In this document: piece by piece, positions 29,075 through 41,139 of the stretch | Numbering within the stretch: the stretch's first letter is position 1 | Layout of the letters: the number at the start of each line of letters is the position of its first letter | From: a virus | Length of the DNA: 64,000 nucleotides | Strand: one strand, 5' to 3' | Virus record (IMG/VR): IMGVR_UViG_3300023179_000106 | Span: 1-64,000 of that record | Translations under genes and position numbers: made by a program | The notes under the pieces: model-generated | What the model saw: only the letters and a program-made list of their open reading frames with translations | Database searches by the model: none | Told to the model about the DNA's origin: nothing

Positions 29075-31350
29075 CCATTCCTACGGCGAGTCTGTTTCCG
29101 GACGAGTACGACAGCGACCTCAACCTGTTCCTGGTTAGGGACTCCCTTCGAGTTCGACTTCTCAACGACTACGAGCCCGGCGATGCGAGCGTGATAGTCG
29201 AGGACTACCCCGAGATGATGGACAGGTTCCCTCCGACGGGGATCATCACCCTCACAGAACAATGCAGCGACATAGACCTGCGGGCGTTGAGCTTCCACTA
29301 CTCTTCCAAGACATCCACGAGCTTCGACGGCCTGGAGATACTTCCCGAGTTCGCCGCTCTGGACTCCGTGAAGCCGAAGAAGGCGACGAATGTGACCATG
29401 AACGTAGTGGCCATGCACCACAACCACCTCAAGGACTCGCTGGTGGCCATACAGGGCAACTTGGGGACAAAGTACACAACCGACAGGGAGACCATAACCG
29501 GCAGGATAAAATATCTGGAGGGCCTGGCATTCCGTCCGAAGGCGTGGTTCTCCGCCAGCACGCCGATAGGACTCGCCCCGCTTTCGGTCACCTTCAAGAA
29601 CGAGAGCTTCAGGCTCGGCCCGTCGGCCGTGACGCACACATGGGACTTTGGGGAAGGAAATCCGGTGACCTTCCAGACGGCGAACCAAAGCGAGTACGAG
29701 AGCTACGAGGGCGTCATAGACGGTGTGCAGATAAAGGGATCGACCCTCACGAAGGTCTATTCCACCCCGGGCATTTACACCGTGTCGCTTATCATGAGCA
29801 ACGAGTGGGGCGATAGCGAGGTCGCATTCGAGGACATGATAACGGTCAAGACAGAGTGTCCCGAGGAGGCCTCGATAGTCATAAACGCTAGGTCGACGCA
29901 AACATACACGGACGGCGATCCCGCGCTCGGCACGCGCCCGAAGATACGATCCGTGGCGAACAGCTTCGTGGACTTCGAGGTTCCGTACGGAAACGACCCC
30001 TCCAGAAGCGGATTCTCCTACGCGGGGGAACTCTTGGAGCTGACGAGCAGCTCGAGCATGTTCGGAAGCCCAGTCGACCCTATCGTGGAATACACATGGA
30101 GCCTCGGCGATGACCTGCCCCATTCGAATTCGGCGTCCGCTCGAGCCTCTTACGGAATAGGAGGGATATACGACATAGTGCTCCGCGTCGACACGAGCTT
30201 TGGGTCGTATCGCATAACGAAGTACGAAGGCTCTGTCGACATAGTCGAATCAAGGAACCTCTGGCTTTTCAAGTTCGATTCAGAAGGCTACAGCGGAGCG
30301 GTTAAGGCATACGAGTTCGGGCTCGACAGCGAGACTTTCAAGCTCCTCGGAAACCAGACCATATCAATAGACAGGAACAGAGAGTTCCTGGACGTGTATG
30401 TAGGGGCGGCATACGACTCGTCCACGCGGTCGCGGGCGAGGAGCGAGTTCGAAAGGAACACCGAATTTGTGCCGTACGGAAGCCTCAGCTCCGGCCTGCG
30501 GGGCAATTCAATGTTGTTCTGGGCGAAGGGTGGATCTTCGCAGGATTCGGCGCAGATCGGAGTGGCAAAATACAATGCCTTCGACGATCAGTATGAGTCG
30601 TTCAGTTCCATATCAGGAAGGCCGTGGAACTGGGTGGCTCTGAACTCTCCGGACAAGACTTACTTCCTTTTCGGAAGTGCGAACCAGTCCCTGCCGAACA
30701 CCAACGCGTCGACGGCCTTGCGGACGGACTACGACCTTCCGAGCCATTCGGTGACATCGTCGTCGGCTCTGGACTCGTCGTCGTTCGGCAACGGCGCGGA
30801 CGAGCTTCTTGAGCATCCGTCATACTTCGAGAACGGTGTGCCGACCAATGGGTATTTCGCGACGTACAGGTCTGCATGGAAGGATTCGGTGGGATACATA
30901 CTGCGCAACTCGGCGGTGAACGAGTTCTTCCGCATCTCCAGTTTCTACAAGACCGTCGGAAGCGTATCCACGCCATTCAGCACAATCACGAAGTTGATCG
31001 ACATGACTGGCACGGCCAAGACCGAGGGTCGACTCGTAACAATGTCGAACGGCATATTCTTCTTTGGCAACTCCGGCGAGGTGAGCGCCTGGAACGACAC
31101 CACGATGACATGGGAGGTCGGACGCACGGGGTCTGCGTCGCTGACCTTCAGGTCGGTACAGGACACCGCGGCCTCCGGGTTCGACGAACGTTCGAATACG
31201 CTTCTTGCCTCTTCGGACGGGGATCGGGTCGCGTACCTGAGTTATGACTACAGCAACAAGGCGTTCGTGAAGTTCAACGGCACGGACTTGACGTTCTCGA
31301 TGCTGAAACAGCGCCCCGCCGGCTCTCAATTCAACATGGGGGTGTACTGA
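29071..31350 (+). CDS. PKD-domain virion protein, paralogue 2 (large)
   Basis: A 759-residue protein with the same N-terminal layout as its neighbours (DSDLNLFLVRDSLRVRLL, then HHNHLKDSLVAIQGNLG near 125), a PKD domain around residues 170-265 (THTWDFGEGNPV, VYSTPGIYTVSLIMSN) and another PKD-like unit near 325-385 (EYTWSLGDDLPHS). The C-terminal half (400-759) has repeated beta segments with short aromatic motifs, which may be a beta-propeller or receptor-binding head. It overlaps the genes on both sides by one or four bases. Confidence 0.82.
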   Translation: MTIPTASLFPDEYDSDLNLFLVRDSLRVRLLNDYEPGDASVIVEDYPEMMDRFPPTGIITLTEQCSDIDLRALSFHYSSKTSTSFDGLEILPEFAALDSVKPKKATNVTMNVVAMHHNHLKDSLVAIQGNLGTKYTTDRETITGRIKYLEGLAFRPKAWFSASTPIGLAPLSVTFKNESFRLGPSAVTHTWDFGEGNPVTFQTANQSEYESYEGVIDGVQIKGSTLTKVYSTPGIYTVSLIMSNEWGDSEVAFEDMITVKTECPEEASIVINARSTQTYTDGDPALGTRPKIRSVANSFVDFEVPYGNDPSRSGFSYAGELLELTSSSSMFGSPVDPIVEYTWSLGDDLPHSNSASARASYGIGGIYDIVLRVDTSFGSYRITKYEGSVDIVESRNLWLFKFDSEGYSGAVKAYEFGLDSETFKLLGNQTISIDRNREFLDVYVGAAYDSSTRSRARSEFERNTEFVPYGSLSSGLRGNSMLFWAKGGSSQDSAQIGVAKYNAFDDQYESFSSISGRPWNWVALNSPDKTYFLFGSANQSLPNTNASTALRTDYDLPSHSVTSSSALDSSSFGNGADELLEHPSYFENGVPTNGYFATYRSAWKDSVGYILRNSAVNEFFRISSFYKTVGSVSTPFSTITKLIDMTGTAKTEGRLVTMSNGIFFFGNSGEVSAWNDTTMTWEVGRTGSASLTFRSVQDTAASGFDERSNTLLASSDGDRVAYLSYDYSNKAFVKFNGTDLTFSMLKQRPAGSQFNMGVY

Positions 31351-34217
31351 TGGCTGTCGGATATCCCCCGAGACCAGCGTTCCCTATTTCCCTAGATTCC
31401 GATCGCACCCTGTATTTGGTCTACAACACGAGTGAGGCCAAGACCACTTCCGAAAACGCTCCGTGGCAAGAGGAGATCGAAATAGTTCCGGTCGGCCCCG
31501 GCGACCTAGAGATATGGGCGGACAACGGGTTTGCCAACATATCTGGAGAGTTGTTCTACTACGACTCCGTGGACAAAGACGAGAACGGCAAGGTGTTCAG
31601 GCTCAAGCGTTGCGCCAGAAACCTAGGGGGGAAGCAGACCAGGTTCAACCCTTCGGGCACGTGGGTTCGCGGCTTTGTCATAGCCGAACACCACAATCAG
31701 TTGGTGGACGCCACGATAGCCACCCAAGCGTACATATTCGACCTTGAGGAAGACCTTTCGGCGTTGGAGGAGGAGACCCCATGCCTCGACGACTCTCCAT
31801 GCGTCGACGCACAGATCGAAACCGAAGTGGTAGACCCTAACCCGCCGAATTGTGCAGGAACGGTGGTCAGCTATTCGGTGACGATCAACGGAACATTCAA
31901 CAATTTTGTGTTGGACTTCGGAGACGGCCAGTCGACCACTTCTAGCCTTTCTGGCCTGCACACTTACAGTCCGGGGGCAAACATAGATCCCGTCCTAACC
32001 GTGTTCAGCGATTCTTGCACGGTAGTCCAGACCCCTCGAGAACGAGACAGGGACGAAGTTCCAGATTCCCCTGCGCCAGACGAGCCCACCCTTACTGTTC
32101 CGGAACTGTGTCTTTTTCCGACTATCAACATACCGACGCTGGAGGTGCCCTCGACGACTGTGGAGGTGCCCCCCATCGTGTTCCCCTGTCTCAATCTGGC
32201 GCCTAGCCTGAATCTGCCGAGCATAATCAGCATAATCCCGCCAGAGATATCGATTGTTCCGTTCAGCTTTACGCCCATAACCATAAGTTTCGGCCCGGCT
32301 CCATTCATATCGCCAAGTTTCACCTTCGGACCGGCTCCGACCATACCGCCGGTGTCGTTCACCTTCGGTCCCGCTCCGGTGGTAACGCCGGCCTCCTTCA
32401 TTTTTGGGCCGATGTCGTTCACTTTCGGTCCGGCTCCGACCATACCTCCGGTGTCGTTCACGTTCGGGCCTGCTCCAAACATACCGCCGGTGTCGTTCAA
32501 CTTCGGCCCCGCTCCGCTGATACCGCCGGTGTCGTTCAACTTCGGCCCGGCTCCGACCATCCCTCCGGTGTCGTTCAACTTTGGCCCGGCTCCGACCATC
32601 CCTCCGGTGTCGTTCAACTTTGGCCCTGCTCCGCTGATACCGCCCGTTTCTTTCAACTTCGGTCCGGCCCCGAAAGTCGAACCCGTGCAGTTCACATTCG
32701 GCGCTGCTCCGAAGGTCCAGCCTGTCGAGTTCACATTCGGCGCTGCTCCGAAGGTCGAACCTGTGTCGTTCAACTTCGGCCCGGCTCCGAAGATATCGCC
32801 TGTGTCGTTCAGTTTCGGCCCGGCTCCGAAGATATCGCCTGTGTCGTTCAGTTTCGGCCCGGCTCCGAAGATAACGCCTGTGTCGTTCAGTTTCGGCCCT
32901 GCTCCGAAGATATCGCCCGTGTCGTTCAGTTTCGGCCATGCTCCGAAGATATCGCCCGTGTCGTTCACATTCGGCCCTGCCCCCGTGGTGTCGGCGACTT
33001 CGTTCACATTCGGCCCTGCCCCCGTGGTGTCGGCGACTTCGTTCAGTTTCGGCCCTGCTCCGAAGATATCGCCCGTGTCGTTCAGTTTCGGCCATGCTCC
33101 GAAGATATCTCCCGTGTCGTTCACATTCGGCCCTGCCCCCGTGGTGTCGGCGACTTCGTTCACATTCGGCCCTGCCCCGAACGTACAGAGTTCCTTCGAA
33201 TGGGGACAGCCGCCGAAGATAGATGGCTCTTTCACATTCGGCACGGCGCCCAAGGTGGGAGGATCGTTCACATGGGGGTCTCCGCCGAAGGCAGGAGGGT
33301 CGTTCACATGGGGTACGGCCCCCAAGGTGGGAGGGTCGTTCACATGGGGGTCGCCACCGAAGATAGACGGATCCTTCACATGGGGTCAGCCGCCTCAAAT
33401 TGGAGGTTCGTTCACTTGGGGCGAGCCACCCCAGGTCGGGGGTTCGTTCACATGGGGCGATCCTCCCGCGATACAGACATCCATAGATTGGGGCGAGCCT
33501 CCTGCGATTCAGGCGTCGATTGACTGGGGAAATCCCCCGAAAATACAAATCGACTGGAGCGACCAGCCAACCATTTCCTGCGTAGTTTCCGTCGAATGCC
33601 CCTCAGGAGGATCCGGGAGTTCTGGGCAGCCGTTCAGGAGGAACATGACTCTCGACGACAACTTCGTCGACGATTTCAATACCGACGACTTTGAGATAGA
33701 GATAGGCAATCTCGGTATACCTTCCGAAATCAAGGTCGTGGCTCCCAAGTTCCCGGACATAAAGGTCGTGCACGACATGCCCGAGTTCATAGAACTCAAG
33801 TCGGACATCCCGAGCAGGATCATAGTGTACCAGGCCGACGTGCTTCCCAAAGAAATAAAGATCGTGTCGGAGTCGATACCCGACACGATCGCCGTAGACG
33901 CCTCTTCTGTTCCGAAGTCTATAGTCATGGACGCCTCCGCCGTTCCTAGCTTCATAACGGTAGTGGCTCCGGACCTGCCGTCCGTCATAAAACTCGACGG
34001 CTCGGGAGTCCCCGATTCGATCAAGGTCTTCGGGATACCCGACTCCATAGAGGTTCGCATGCCCAGCGAGATAGTGGCCCGACTGGAGGTCCCAGAAAAC
34101 CTCGAGGTGCCACTCGTATACAGAGGAGACCCTGTGCCGGTGAGGTTTGACGCATCGGTGATATCCGAATCGGGCGAGCAAATGTGCTTCGCTTTGGTCC
34201 CTTGCGGCAAGAAATGA
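31350..34217 (+). CDS. PKD-domain virion protein, paralogue 3, with FG/WG-P tandem repeats
   Basis: A 955-residue protein. Residues 1-150 match the docking region of the two preceding paralogues (DSDRTLYLVYNTSE, GTWVRGFVIAEHHNQLVDAT). Residues 160-215 are PKD-like (LDFGDGQSTTSS, LHTYSPG). Residues 310-405 are Pro/Ile-rich, and from about residue 312 to 740 there are about 35 copies of a 13- or 12-residue unit of the form S-F-(T/N/S)-F-G-P-A-P-x-I-x-P-V. Residues 780-920 hold a different 9-12-residue repeat with a P.xI pattern. It is likely a long, stiff fibre. The ATG overlaps the upstream stop. Confidence 0.85.
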   Translation: MAVGYPPRPAFPISLDSDRTLYLVYNTSEAKTTSENAPWQEEIEIVPVGPGDLEIWADNGFANISGELFYYDSVDKDENGKVFRLKRCARNLGGKQTRFNPSGTWVRGFVIAEHHNQLVDATIATQAYIFDLEEDLSALEEETPCLDDSPCVDAQIETEVVDPNPPNCAGTVVSYSVTINGTFNNFVLDFGDGQSTTSSLSGLHTYSPGANIDPVLTVFSDSCTVVQTPRERDRDEVPDSPAPDEPTLTVPELCLFPTINIPTLEVPSTTVEVPPIVFPCLNLAPSLNLPSIISIIPPEISIVPFSFTPITISFGPAPFISPSFTFGPAPTIPPVSFTFGPAPVVTPASFIFGPMSFTFGPAPTIPPVSFTFGPAPNIPPVSFNFGPAPLIPPVSFNFGPAPTIPPVSFNFGPAPTIPPVSFNFGPAPLIPPVSFNFGPAPKVEPVQFTFGAAPKVQPVEFTFGAAPKVEPVSFNFGPAPKISPVSFSFGPAPKISPVSFSFGPAPKITPVSFSFGPAPKISPVSFSFGHAPKISPVSFTFGPAPVVSATSFTFGPAPVVSATSFSFGPAPKISPVSFSFGHAPKISPVSFTFGPAPVVSATSFTFGPAPNVQSSFEWGQPPKIDGSFTFGTAPKVGGSFTWGSPPKAGGSFTWGTAPKVGGSFTWGSPPKIDGSFTWGQPPQIGGSFTWGEPPQVGGSFTWGDPPAIQTSIDWGEPPAIQASIDWGNPPKIQIDWSDQPTISCVVSVECPSGGSGSSGQPFRRNMTLDDNFVDDFNTDDFEIEIGNLGIPSEIKVVAPKFPDIKVVHDMPEFIELKSDIPSRIIVYQADVLPKEIKIVSESIPDTIAVDASSVPKSIVMDASAVPSFITVVAPDLPSVIKLDGSGVPDSIKVFGIPDSIEVRMPSEIVARLEVPENLEVPLVYRGDPVPVRFDASVISESGEQMCFALVPCGKK
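32283..33560 (+). repeat. FG/WG-P tandem repeat array (39-bp then 36-bp units)
   Basis: About 24 units of 39 bp are followed from about 33192 by about 10 units of 36 bp. The 39-bp units encode SF-x-FGPAP-x-I/V-x-P-V. The 36-bp units encode SF-x-WG-x-PP-x-I-x-G-S. Three consecutive units near 32900-32990 recur almost exactly near 33040-33160, showing a 117-bp segmental duplication. One unit near 32400 is truncated to seven residues. Confidence 0.95.
33700..34110 (+). repeat. Degenerate Pro-x-x-Ile repeat region
   Basis: About a dozen 9-12-residue units of the form P-(D/S/K)-x-I-x-V, for example IPSEIKVVAPKF, FPDIKVV, IPDTIAVDASSV and VPSFITVVAPDL. The spacing and strand alternation suggest a second, different beta-solenoid after the FG array in the same protein. 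Confidence 0.8.
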
Positions 34218-36464: not shown

Positions 36465-36683
36465 ATGCCTAATTTGATCAAGCAGGGCGAGGCCAGGGTG
36501 GTGACGAAGAACGGAGAGGTCTTCGTCAACATCTCTCTTGAATTGAACATCAAGCTGGAGGGCGTGTCCGGAGTCCAAGGATTCTCGCAGGCCGCAGGAG
36601 CGACGACGGCTTTGCCCAACGAAGACAAGGTGAACTGGGAGATACCCGACTTCGCCCCTGGAAAAATAGATTTCGGAAAATGA
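36465..36683 (+). CDS. Small hypothetical protein
   Basis: A 72-residue protein with an ATG after a GGGGGGCG ribosome-binding region. The sequence is beta-rich (EVFVNISLELNIKLEG) and ends in FAPGKIDFGK. Located 10 bases upstream of the actin-like ATPase, it could be its partner, but that is position-based only. Confidence 0.65.
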   Translation: MPNLIKQGEARVVTKNGEVFVNISLELNIKLEGVSGVQGFSQAAGATTALPNEDKVNWEIPDFAPGKIDFGK

Positions 36684-36693
36684 GGTGTACAAA

Positions 36694-37713
36694 ATGAGGA
36701 TCGGATTCGACTGTGGCACTTATCATCTGGTGAGCTGCAAAAGGGGCGAGGACAACGCCTTGTCGTACAAGAAAGAAGTTAACGCTTTCCTTCAGATGCC
36801 GTTGGACAACCGCTTCGTCTTCAACATGATGAAGAACGCGGGAGTCCCTTTGATCGAGCAGCCAGAGGCCAACGTGGGCTACGCCCTAGGCGAGGCTGCC
36901 GTGAACATGGCCTACACTATGACTCAAATCGAACTCAAGAGGCCCATGAAGGACGGATGCCTCAACCCCAAGGAGAAGCACGCCCAGCAGATAATGAATG
37001 TCATGTGCCACAGCCTCATAGGCGACGTGGACGAGGACGGCTCCCTTCTGTACTACTCGGTTCCCGCGAACGCCATCAACCAAGAGACCGACGCCGACTA
37101 TCACGGCAAGGTGTTGGAGGCGATGTTCAAGTCATACAGAAGCGAGAAGGGATACCGCGTGGAGCCTCACCCCATCAACGAGGCCTTGGCGCTCGTGTAT
37201 GCGGAACTGCAGGGCAAGGCTTGGACGGGCGTGGGGATCAGCTTCGGGGCCGGAATGGTGAACCTCTGCTATGCCATGTACGGGGCTCCGATATTTCAGT
37301 TCTCCCTGGTGAACAGCGGCGACTGGATCGATAAGATGGCGTCCAAGGCCATCGGAGAGGATACGACCACCTATGTGAACAGGGAAAAGATGCACGCCGA
37401 CCTGACCGTGGAACACCCGGAGACCCTGGTCCAGAGGGCCATAAAGTCCCAGTACGAGATAATGATCCAGCACACCGTGGCGGGCATCAAGAAGGGCGTC
37501 GAGGAGGCGGGCAACAAGGCTCGATCCGAACAGCCAATAGACATCGTCATAGCTGGCGGCACGAGCATGCCGAAGGGCTTCGACGTTCTGTTCAGGAAGA
37601 TACTCGAGCAGGCGAAGATAACGAACATGAAGATCGGGGAGGTGATCCGCCCGGCGGATCCGCTATTCTCGGTGGCGCGCGGCTGCCTGATCGCCGCAGA
37701 AAACGCGAAGTAG
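36694..37713 (+). CDS. Actin/Hsp70-like ATPase (ParM/MreB-type fold)
   Basis: A 339-residue protein with the three nucleotide-binding motifs of the actin-Hsp70-sugar kinase superfamily: phosphate-1 IGFDCGTYHLV at residues 3-13, phosphate-2 ISFGAGMVNLCYA near 182, and the adenosine motif IVIAGGTSMPKGF near 285. Family members bind ATP and either polymerise (ParM, MreB, Alp) or act as chaperones. The length fits ParM/MreB better than Hsp70. A role in genome or virion positioning is a hypothesis. ATG 36694 is chosen because GAGGTG lies at a proper distance. GTG 36685 is the alternative. Confidence 0.85.
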   Translation: MRIGFDCGTYHLVSCKRGEDNALSYKKEVNAFLQMPLDNRFVFNMMKNAGVPLIEQPEANVGYALGEAAVNMAYTMTQIELKRPMKDGCLNPKEKHAQQIMNVMCHSLIGDVDEDGSLLYYSVPANAINQETDADYHGKVLEAMFKSYRSEKGYRVEPHPINEALALVYAELQGKAWTGVGISFGAGMVNLCYAMYGAPIFQFSLVNSGDWIDKMASKAIGEDTTTYVNREKMHADLTVEHPETLVQRAIKSQYEIMIQHTVAGIKKGVEEAGNKARSEQPIDIVIAGGTSMPKGFDVLFRKILEQAKITNMKIGEVIRPADPLFSVARGCLIAAENAK

Positions 37714-37729: not shown

Positions 37730-37948
37730 ATGAAGAAGACTGTTAGCGACTTGGGGGCGGGTGCGTACCTGCTCATGCACGGCCACAAGGTTGTGGGCAG
37801 GAGAGGCCGGGACTTCATATTTGAGGTGGCCGAGCACGAGGATTCGGAGTTCGAGCAGAGAAAGTTGGAGTACCTCTCCAGCGAATTCCATCGGTTCGAC
37901 TCGTACATCATGTCCCTCAAGAAGATTGGGGAGTACAACCCGGAATGA
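37730..37948 (+). CDS. Small hypothetical protein (DUF5659-like pattern)
   Basis: A 72-residue protein whose layout, LGAGAYLLMHGHKVVGR then RDFIFEV, resembles small phage proteins with an AYLL..G......GR..F.F pattern. It has a GAAAGG ribosome-binding site 16 bases after the ATPase stop and overlaps the next gene by ATGA. Function unknown. Confidence 0.65.
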   Translation: MKKTVSDLGAGAYLLMHGHKVVGRRGRDFIFEVAEHEDSEFEQRKLEYLSSEFHRFDSYIMSLKKIGEYNPE

Positions 37949-38340
37949 GTCCGAAGGGGCTGGAGTACTTCGTCGGCAAGGTGTGCACGGTCTTCACCGT
38001 GCCCATCAACAGGGACTTCAAGTCGGAAAATCCCCAGACCTTTCCCCAGCCGGTGTTCCACTACTTCGTGGGAAAGGTTCTGGAGGTTGGGAGCCGCGGG
38101 GTGGCCCTCGAGCAGTGGAACAGCGACAAGAAACTCAGAACTTTCTTCTTCGTCGACCACATAGTCGCCATATCAGAAGAAGAAATCCTCGATCCTTCGA
38201 ACCCCAAGGACAGGGCGCTCATAGAGGACTACAAAAAGACCAGCGAGGCGTCCGTGGGCGAAACAAAGGAGAAGGCATCCGAGGAGGAGGCCTGCAAGTA
38301 CGTCGACATCAGGCAGCTCACGGAACTTTCGTCCAAGTAG
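37945..38340 (+). CDS. Hypothetical protein
   Basis: A 131-residue protein. The N-terminal half has a beta-barrel-like pattern (LEYFVGKVCTVFTVPI, FHYFVGKVLEVG), while the C-terminus is charged and helical. Its stop directly abuts the convergent primase gene, with no intergenic base. It may be regulated with the actin-like ATPase, since the genes run without gaps. No family recognised. Confidence 0.7.
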   Translation: MSPKGLEYFVGKVCTVFTVPINRDFKSENPQTFPQPVFHYFVGKVLEVGSRGVALEQWNSDKKLRTFFFVDHIVAISEEEILDPSNPKDRALIEDYKKTSEASVGETKEKASEEEACKYVDIRQLTELSSK

Positions 38341-39408: not shown

Positions 39409-40257
39409 ATGATACTTCGAAGACTAGAAAATGGCAATTCCGCCCTCTATCACCTCATGAACATCGAGCACATATCCGTGTCGAGGGGCAAGTCCTATAG
39501 GCAATGCCCATACTACTACAAACTCAAGTACCACGACAAAATACCTAATCCGGGCGAGGAGCAGTTCTATTTCGTCTACGGCAAGATAATCCACAAAATA
39601 GCCGAATGCCACGTGGCAGAGGAGGGTGCCAGGAGCATCAAGGAGATATCCAAGGAGGTGCTTGGCGGGAAGATCGAACTAGAGCACGGGAAGTTCGCGC
39701 CTCCTTTGCCGCCGGAGTTCAGAAGTCGTCTGCCGGGGCATCTCAAGGCCTTGGAGAGGCTCAACAAGAAGATCGGATGCTCCGGAATCACGGAGCACAA
39801 ATTCAGGTACGACCTGGAGATCCCCAACTGCAAGTATGTGACGGGTTTTATCGACCGTATCATACTGAAGGAGGGCAAGGCGTGGATAATCGATTACAAG
39901 ACCACGAAGAAGGGCCCGTTCAGGGAGGATAAGAAAACCATCAAGTACGACCCCCAGCTTCGGATCTATTCCAGGGTCGTGCAGAAGGAGTTCGGGATAG
40001 ATCCGAAGGACATCAGGGCCGCGTTGTTCTACCTTGAGGACGAGGAGATCATAGACGCTTCGTACTCGGAGGAGTCTCTGGAGGCGGCCGAAAGAGAACT
40101 TCTGGAGTTGTACGACTCTATAAGCTCGCACCGGGCCGAAGACGCCAGGGGAATAACGGGACAGCACTGCAAGCGGTGCGAATACAGAGACATGTGCCCC
40201 TTCTTCAAGAACAGCCAGAGAAAGGTCTATTGGAACGGCGACCTGTCGTCTCTCTGA
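39409..40257 (+). CDS. PD-(D/E)XK nuclease (Cas4/RecB/AddB-like, Fe-S cluster)
   Basis: A 282-residue exonuclease-type protein. The N-terminal ISVSRGKSYRQCPYYYKLKY contains the first cluster cysteine, GFIDRI near residue 146 gives the catalytic Asp, IIDYKTTK near 161 the D-x-K, and HCKRCEYRDMC near 253 the three last cysteines of a 4Fe-4S cluster. Such proteins process DNA ends and could act in replication or recombination. ATG 39409 is used. ATG 39457 is an alternative, since homology to the family begins there. The stop overlaps the convergent serine protease gene. Confidence 0.87.
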   Translation: MILRRLENGNSALYHLMNIEHISVSRGKSYRQCPYYYKLKYHDKIPNPGEEQFYFVYGKIIHKIAECHVAEEGARSIKEISKEVLGGKIELEHGKFAPPLPPEFRSRLPGHLKALERLNKKIGCSGITEHKFRYDLEIPNCKYVTGFIDRIILKEGKAWIIDYKTTKKGPFREDKKTIKYDPQLRIYSRVVQKEFGIDPKDIRAALFYLEDEEIIDASYSEESLEAAERELLELYDSISSHRAEDARGITGQHCKRCEYRDMCPFFKNSQRKVYWNGDLSSL

Positions 40258-41111
40258 TTTCGGTTCGATGGTCTGGGCACGAAGTGCCTGTCGTACCTCG
40301 CCTCTGGATTCTCTCTGTCGACCACCGGTATCGCGGACGGGTCGAAGGCCGAAGAAAGAAGCCAGGCGTGTGCGTTTTTCGTGAACACCTCGCTGATCGC
40401 GGAGAGCGGCGTGAAGAATCCGATCCCGTCGCCCGAAGATACGTCGGAAGTACCCCAACACACGCCCACAAGTAGCCCGTCGTCGGTGAGCAGCCCTCCA
40501 CCCGACCTGCCCGGGCGCGGGCTGTTCAGCCTCGTTACGAGGTCGGCGCCCTCCGTGGACTTCACGACGACTTCGTAGCGCGCGACCTCTTTTCCTCCGT
40601 CGCATCCCATCGAGTTCAGGCGCATTCCGACCTTCGGAGAGAAACCCATCGAGATCGGAGCGAAGGAGCATTCCCAGTCTGGCTTGAACCTGAGTAGGCT
40701 GACGTCTTGTCCTCTCCTGTTGCTCCAGAATAGCACCTCTGCCTCGTAGGAGGCGGGAGAGGCCAGCCTGGGTCCATCCTGATACCAGGTGGTTATTTTG
40801 GCTCGCTCCATTCCGTTCGGGCTGTAGTCCATATCTCCGCTCCACAGGTGGCCGCAGGATATTACATAAGCCCATCCCGTTTCCCTGTCGTAATGGCATA
40901 TGGTTCCGGAGCCCGCCGCGCCGTGGACGGAAATTCTCACGGAAACCATCAGCAGGTTCTGGAACCTCTCGTCCCTTTGCTCGTTTAGTATGCACGGGCT
41001 GTAGGAGCAGGACTCCCTGTATAGGGGGTGCTCAGGGGCGACGGGCGAAGCCGTCGCAGACGATGCCCAAGAGAGGGCTAGAATGATCCCCAGAAGCAAA
41101 ATCCTTTTCAT
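40227..41111 (-). CDS. Secreted trypsin-like serine protease
   Basis: A 294-residue protein with an N-terminal Sec signal peptide (MKRILLLGIILALSWASS, likely cut after ATA near 21). The chymotrypsin-like triad is visible: His88 in YVISCGHLW, Asp136 in QDVSLLRF and Ser203 in PRPGRSGGGLL. It resembles Trypsin-2/Deg-type proteases without PDZ domains. The C-terminus carries a tail with RHFVPRPS at residues 276-282, shared with the cysteine protease encoded nearby. Start ATG 41111 is preferred over an ATG 15 bases upstream because GGAGG lies 8 bases away. It probably acts in the host periplasm. Confidence 0.88.
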   Translation of the reverse strand: MKRILLLGIILALSWASSATASPVAPEHPLYRESCSYSPCILNEQRDERFQNLLMVSVRISVHGAAGSGTICHYDRETGWAYVISCGHLWSGDMDYSPNGMERAKITTWYQDGPRLASPASYEAEVLFWSNRRGQDVSLLRFKPDWECSFAPISMGFSPKVGMRLNSMGCDGGKEVARYEVVVKSTEGADLVTRLNSPRPGRSGGGLLTDDGLLVGVCWGTSDVSSGDGIGFFTPLSAISEVFTKNAHAWLLSSAFDPSAIPVVDRENPEARYDRHFVPRPSNRNQRDDRSPFQ

Positions 41112-41139
41112 ATTTTCAGCCTCCATGCCGTACTAGTTT

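Follow-up and report, generated by a model that had tools for sequence, protein, structure and literature searches.

A volactin-family actin with two small partner genes in a lineage of huge T4-plan phages

Volactin (VolA, HVO_2015; Pfam PF25216) of Haloferax volcanii forms dynamic filaments in vivo that grow and shrink, and it serves the disk shape of haloarchaeal cells (PMC10869688); members of the family are also found on haloarchaeal megaplasmids. Phage-encoded actins are not new: prophage CGP3 encodes AlpC, which makes up a ParM-like system (PMC4446434). PhuZ of phiKZ-like phages, a phage-made cytoskeleton in very large phages, possibly fills a role equivalent to that of the actin described here, but it has a tubulin fold and uses GTP, whereas the phage volactin has an actin fold and presumably uses ATP. 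To our knowledge, the known jumbo-phage cytoskeletons are tubulins. Papers on jumbo and huge phages (PMC7824862, PMC13282480, PMC7950403, PMC7162821 and PMC12619734) describe PhuZ or no cytoskeleton and make no mention of a phage actin, and the literature searched, which included few subscription papers, held no report of volactin-family actins in phages. What appears to be new is that volactin, another actin family, is near-constant in a large lineage of huge phages, in a module unlike ParMRC.

The DNA analysed here (the window, 64,000 nucleotides) is most of a 65,674-base IMG/VR fragment, and the huge size of the phage is read from its relatives (532-595 kb). Matches to portal, prohead protease, large terminase, baseplate wedge and tape-measure proteins follow a T4-like plan; the exact T4 late-promoter motif is absent from the plus strand of the window (58% GC). 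A frame open from 36685 to 37713 on the plus strand contains the actin ORF, whose ATG lies 10 nt past an upstream stop codon with GAGGTG directly ahead. In the lineage of the window (lineage A), this gene sits in the structural region, with tail genes on one side and head genes on the other. The features of the locus are as follows.

36465..36683, plus strand: upstream partner, 72 aa, its stop codon 10 nt ahead of the actin start (HMM match at 76/80 loci, alignment)
36636-36680, plus strand: C-terminal tail of the upstream partner, W-E-I-P-D-F-A-P-G-K-I-D-F-G-K (alignment)
36694..37713, plus strand: volactin-family actin, 339 aa (PF25216 E=1.4e-62, AF2 pLDDT 92.3, MamK filament Z 29.1)
36703..36732, plus strand: phosphate-1 loop, residues 4-13 (GFDCGTYHLV), with D6, G8 and T9 invariant in phage alignments A1 and A2
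37180..37182, plus strand: E163, which starts helix 163-171, equivalent of the MamK/MreB catalytic Glu (MamK alignment, model, invariant in A2)
37240..37263, plus strand: phosphate-2 loop, residues 183-190 (SFGAGMVN), canonical Asp replaced by Ser183, which is invariant in A2
37543..37581, plus strand: adenosine motif, residues 284-296 (IVIAGGTSMPKGF), with G288 and G289 invariant
37730..37948, plus strand: downstream partner, 72 aa (HMM match at 77/80 loci, alignment, AF2 pLDDT 94.9)
37945..38340, plus strand: 131-aa ORF overlapping the downstream partner (synteny table)

Elsewhere in the window, a 955-aa ORF (31350-34217) consists mostly of degenerate tandem repeats (F-x-F-G-P-A-P... / P-V-S-F) that leave antisense frames of 471 and 517 aa open, and is probably a fibre or surface protein; a trypsin-like protease with a putative signal peptide (40227-41126, minus strand) has a primase and a PD-(D/E)XK nuclease nearby.

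Differences between the actin gene and its nearest relative number 29, 19 and 162 at the first, second and third codon positions, respectively. This third-position bias, together with a dN of 0.077 against a saturated dS of about 2, indicates a genuine gene on which purifying selection acts strongly. Judged from the sequences, the ORF and its motifs lie far beyond chance, which is excluded by the Pfam E value, by conservation over hundreds of viral stretches and by the codon pattern.

The 339-aa product is, with near certainty, an actin-type ATPase of the volactin family. The HMM search against actin-superfamily models, which the original prediction had proposed as a check, returned the Pfam Volactin model in full length (model positions 1-321 of 321 on actin residues 1-335; 212.5 bits versus a cut-off of 35), whereas MreB remained below threshold in Pfam (21.1 bits versus 27) and in NCBIfam (17.2 versus 293), and NCBIfam MamK was not reached either (35.9 bits versus 400). 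ParM, Alp, Hsp70 and kinase models gave no match at E <= 10 in the Pfam scan of the actin ORF, which returned Volactin and the weak MreB only, and PHROGs gave no significant match for the actin and no family for either partner. A pairwise comparison of the whole phage actin with a haloarchaeal (Haloarcula) homologue gave 31% identity (E=4e-55), and H. volcanii was the sole genome over the Volactin cut-off among 14 control genomes. Phage and archaeal members have in common the phosphate-2 motif Ser-x-Gly-Ala/Gly-Gly-Met, RRPM and GDWID; H. volcanii volactin, a member of the same family, has the Ser phosphate-2 loop and RRPM, as do the Haloarcula and Natrinema members. Unlike volactin, the phage actin of the window is carried by tailed phages, has its own long branch in the tree (100/100 support) and lies in an operon with two small partners. 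A second huge-phage lineage (lineage B; LR745208, 485 kb, with one relative contig of 618,736 bases) carries a separate branch of the volactin family, and the tree test neither establishes nor rejects one common origin for the phage members (p-AU 0.20).

Cellular relatives extend to the Planctomycetota, in which 76 of the 199 sampled genomes exceed the Volactin cut-off. These proteins share the Pfam family and the motifs, but their genes are chromosomal and the proteins are often C-terminally extended or fused. Planctomycetota genomes often hold two paralogues, and many of the frames are unusually long; in genome G021 (locus L202), the volactin domain shares a 925-aa protein with a T2SSE/PilT-type ATPase, and in genome G194 (locus L201) it shares one of 1088 aa with a Wzz/GNVR/AAA_31 polysaccharide-kinase-like module, fusions that give a hint, at the level of sequence, about cellular roles of the family.

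Four rival explanations of the phage actin were weighed. In falling order of probability, it would act on the host cytoskeleton, serve as a chaperone, segregate DNA in ParMRC fashion or be part of the virion. In the first, its targets are host actins, either MreB or a volactin-like protein, which it would cap, titrate or join in co-polymers and thereby alter cell shape or stop division, and the occurrence of the family in the Planctomycetota, as well as its members acting in haloarchaeal cell shape, would suit it. We nonetheless consider it unlikely, because nothing points to the volactin family in the hosts, because the actin is kept with two phage-specific partners, and because its neighbours are late structural genes, whereas genes for host takeover often vary. 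The bacterial matches in MAGs of the Neisseriaceae (L092) and the Verrucomicrobiales (L099) resemble phage contigs, and no host was named from them.

Structure prediction, the other computational check proposed, gave a complete two-domain, four-subdomain actin fold (AlphaFold2 with 46 related sequences as alignment input; mean pLDDT 92.3, pTM 0.89). Foldseek against the PDB ranked MamK, MreB, BeeR and eukaryotic actin highest among the matches listed, and a second aligner gave, among the matches listed, the MamK filament first (Z 29.1, rmsd 2.8, 295 residues), followed by the BeeR filament (Z 27.6), MreB (about 26), crenactin (25.5) and F-actin (about 25); these neighbours come from the best 50 matches listed, which say nothing on ParM or Hsp70. 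MamK, the magnetosome actin and the best structural match among those listed, is only 18% identical to the phage actin and retains the phosphate-2 Asp. The original prediction of an actin-superfamily ATPase in a T4-like phage is thus borne out by the PF25216 match, the modelled fold and the T4-plan genes; its comparison with ParM/MreB holds for the superfamily and fails for the family, which is Volactin, with weak resemblance to MamK, BeeR and MreB.

The alternative that the same prediction had named against itself, a small Hsp70-like chaperone or a kinase, is unlikely given the missing model matches, the missing substrate-binding domain and the filament-subunit neighbours. As a wider rival, a monomeric chaperone-like or assembly ATPase would fold or assemble virion parts in Hsp70 fashion, as might be expected of a gene between tail and head genes; in lineage B, too, the actin adjoins long ORFs without an identified family, and Hsp70-type proteins occur among distant viral structure matches. 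We rate this rival as quite unlikely, because an Hsp70 model match is absent, 339 aa hold no substrate-binding domain, the closest solved structures among the matches listed are filament subunits, and no nucleotide-exchange-factor or J-domain partner was recognised. As an identity, an Hsp70-like chaperone was rejected: no Hsp70 profile matched at E <= 10, and the 339 aa form one actin-fold domain.

The three nucleotide-binding motifs quoted in the original prediction are present and in order (D6-C-G-T9, F184-G-A-G-M-V-N190 and A287-G-G-T-S-M-P293), and Asp6, Gly8, Thr9, Glu163, Ser183, Gly185, Gly187, Asn190, Gly288 and Gly289 are invariant over the 46 sequences of alignment A2. A profile search of PDB sequences ranked MamK first (E 5e-5) and aligned Glu163 with the Glu of MamK SEPF and Ser183 with the Asp of MamK DIGAG. 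In the model, Glu163 lies in the first helical turn past strand 156-162, where actin has Gln137. The phosphate-2 change from Asp to Ser is typical of the family, being common to the haloarchaeal and most planctomycete members. To go by the sequence, it could weaken hydrolysis, but it probably does not exclude polymerisation, because the filaments of archaeal volactin are dynamic in cells, both growing and shrinking (PMC10869688).

Relatives of the actin occur in at least 458 IMG/VR stretches, on contigs of up to 532,729 bases (a single-sequence query had retrieved 88, compared with this wider search), and the 595-kb record LR756511 carries one with 60% identity. To avoid circularity, contigs of at least 60 kb were picked via the large terminase (n=23); the actin is present in 20 of these, which argues that it is a near-core gene of the lineage. 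Within its own neighbourhood in lineage A, the actin is the best conserved gene. In one lineage B contig (L220:7929-8838), the actin frame is broken, with homology to residues 1-155 in one frame and to 197-320 in another; the gene may have decayed to a pseudogene, the contig may be misassembled, or an intein site may have degraded.

Some phage actin genes are interrupted by in-frame inteins, at three sites that all fall in the most conserved motifs. Four lineage A contigs (L080, L081, L092 and G222, the last a 716-aa frame) have an intein at the phosphate-2 loop; those of L080, L081 and L092 directly follow Ser183 and have C...N|C junctions. In lineage B, the intein of L215 lies a few residues further on, after MTN, and those of L216, L217 and L219 lie in GDWID. 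Pfam identified an intein splicing domain and LAGLIDADG or HNH endonucleases in the scanned insertions. The interrupted genes with coordinates are the following.

L080:1930-4059, intein-interrupted actin gene, lineage A
L081:9989-12127, intein-interrupted actin gene, lineage A
L092:5369-7504, intein-interrupted actin gene, lineage A
L215:7956-10160, intein-interrupted actin gene, lineage B
L216:7962-10058, intein-interrupted actin gene, lineage B

Inteins typically persist at catalytic motifs of genes that must stay intact, and their sites in conserved motifs of the actin support an important, active nucleotide site.

Both partner genes are nearly constant in lineage A, and neither was found at lineage B loci by HMM search. 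The four loci of the 80 at which the upstream gene was missed are contigs that end upstream of the actin. The downstream gene starts 16 nt past the actin stop codon here, and in some relatives a variable gene is inserted into this gap; on one lineage A contig (L077:881-3400), several extra ORFs lie between the actin and the downstream partner, one of them terminase-fragment-like. The 131-aa ORF that follows is on the opposite strand in most relatives and is thus not core to the module, although it is in the operon here. Searches for a known family gave no match for either partner. The upstream protein combines a conserved beta-rich N-terminus, a variable linker and a conserved C-terminal tail, which has the C-terminal peptide WEIPDFAPGKIDFGK and the consensus W-[AE]-I-P-D-F...K-x-F-G-K over its relatives; as a possible shared filament-binding peptide, the tail motif was sought in other phage proteins and found nowhere else in the window or the sampled loci. 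A folded part and a flexible conserved tail, encoded beside a filament gene, are the look of filament adaptors such as ParR. The downstream protein is predicted by AF2 to fold as beta-alpha-beta-beta-alpha-alpha, without a significant structural match (no Foldseek match at E <= 0.001; best Z 4.7), and in many relatives it is tandem-duplicated in one chain.

These partners bear on the rival in which the phage chromosome is partitioned or placed via a DNA-bound adaptor, as in ParMRC or AlpAC. ParM and the phage-encoded AlpC are likewise actin-fold filament systems, and an actin in an operon with small partner genes recalls AlpC, which has this role in prophage CGP3 (PMC4446434). However, the phage actin lacks a ParM or Alp profile match, the downstream partner is not ParR-like, its predicted fold being other than ribbon-helix-helix, and no iteron-, centromere- or parC-like repeats lie near the operon, where only a two-copy, chance-like 12-nt repeat was found. 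We therefore regard DNA segregation of this type as very unlikely; a ParM/AlpC-type identity was rejected on the absent profile match and repeats.

Instead, the near-universal presence of a volactin-family actin in this widespread lineage of uncultured giant phages, with two dedicated partners, argues that these phages probably build their own actin filaments. In the mechanism that we propose, the actin would be the motor or scaffold of a phage-encoded module. ATP would be bound in the cleft of the complete four-part fold, a step strongly supported by sequence and model, and the actin would assemble into filaments as volactin and MamK do; by this analogy, ATP-driven polymerisation is likely. 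Glu163 would drive the hydrolysis cycle, which Ser183 in place of Asp may slow or tune. The upstream protein would act as an adaptor whose folded N-terminus holds cargo or self-associates and whose conserved flexible tail grips the filament; we give this tail-bearing adaptor, whose actin binding we infer, about an even chance. From its invariant co-localisation, the downstream protein may be a second cofactor, either a regulator or a second linker. During infection, the module would then place or transport phage material inside the cell, whether replicating genomes, capsids or an assembly site; placing of genomes or virions by the actin is plausible, and should filaments form, the arguments for and against positioning or transport of phage cargo are roughly balanced. 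Because of the structural-gene neighbourhood and the absent repeats, capsids or assembly sites are as likely a cargo as DNA. Taken whole, the model of an ATP-dependent filament that the partners couple to phage cargo is one that we favour slightly.

The same neighbourhood would also suit a protein that is packaged in the virion, such as a filament or a tail-associated component, and in lineage A the actin is indeed encoded in the structural region; yet full conservation of the nucleotide site and the cellular relatives point to a cytoplasmic ATPase, and the protein matches no structural-protein family, making this the least probable of the four rivals.

The cytoplasmic filament that we favour may do the job of the PhuZ tubulin in nucleus-forming jumbo phages, which the lineage appears to lack. 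No tubulin was found in 12 large phage relatives by a search that does find PhuZ in phiKZ, and no chimallin was found in 12 large relatives with a single phiKZ ChmA query, which could miss distant shells. We suggest only tentatively, and with more doubt than confidence, that in these globally widespread phages, which are huge, T4-like in plan and lack both PhuZ and a chimallin shell, the actin and its two partners organise infection instead of a tubulin spindle, and that such an actin cytoskeleton is an independent viral solution to the transport of genomes or capsids within large infected cells.

With an actin that is near-core across hundreds of huge-phage contigs, giant phages would prove to have adopted both great cytoskeletal families, and the range of the volactin family would widen from archaea to phages and Planctomycetota. 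The three-gene system is compact, making expression and testing in E. coli feasible. For actin hydrolysis, Ser in place of Asp at phosphate 2 is a natural experiment, and through protein splicing the inteins may make filament assembly controllable.
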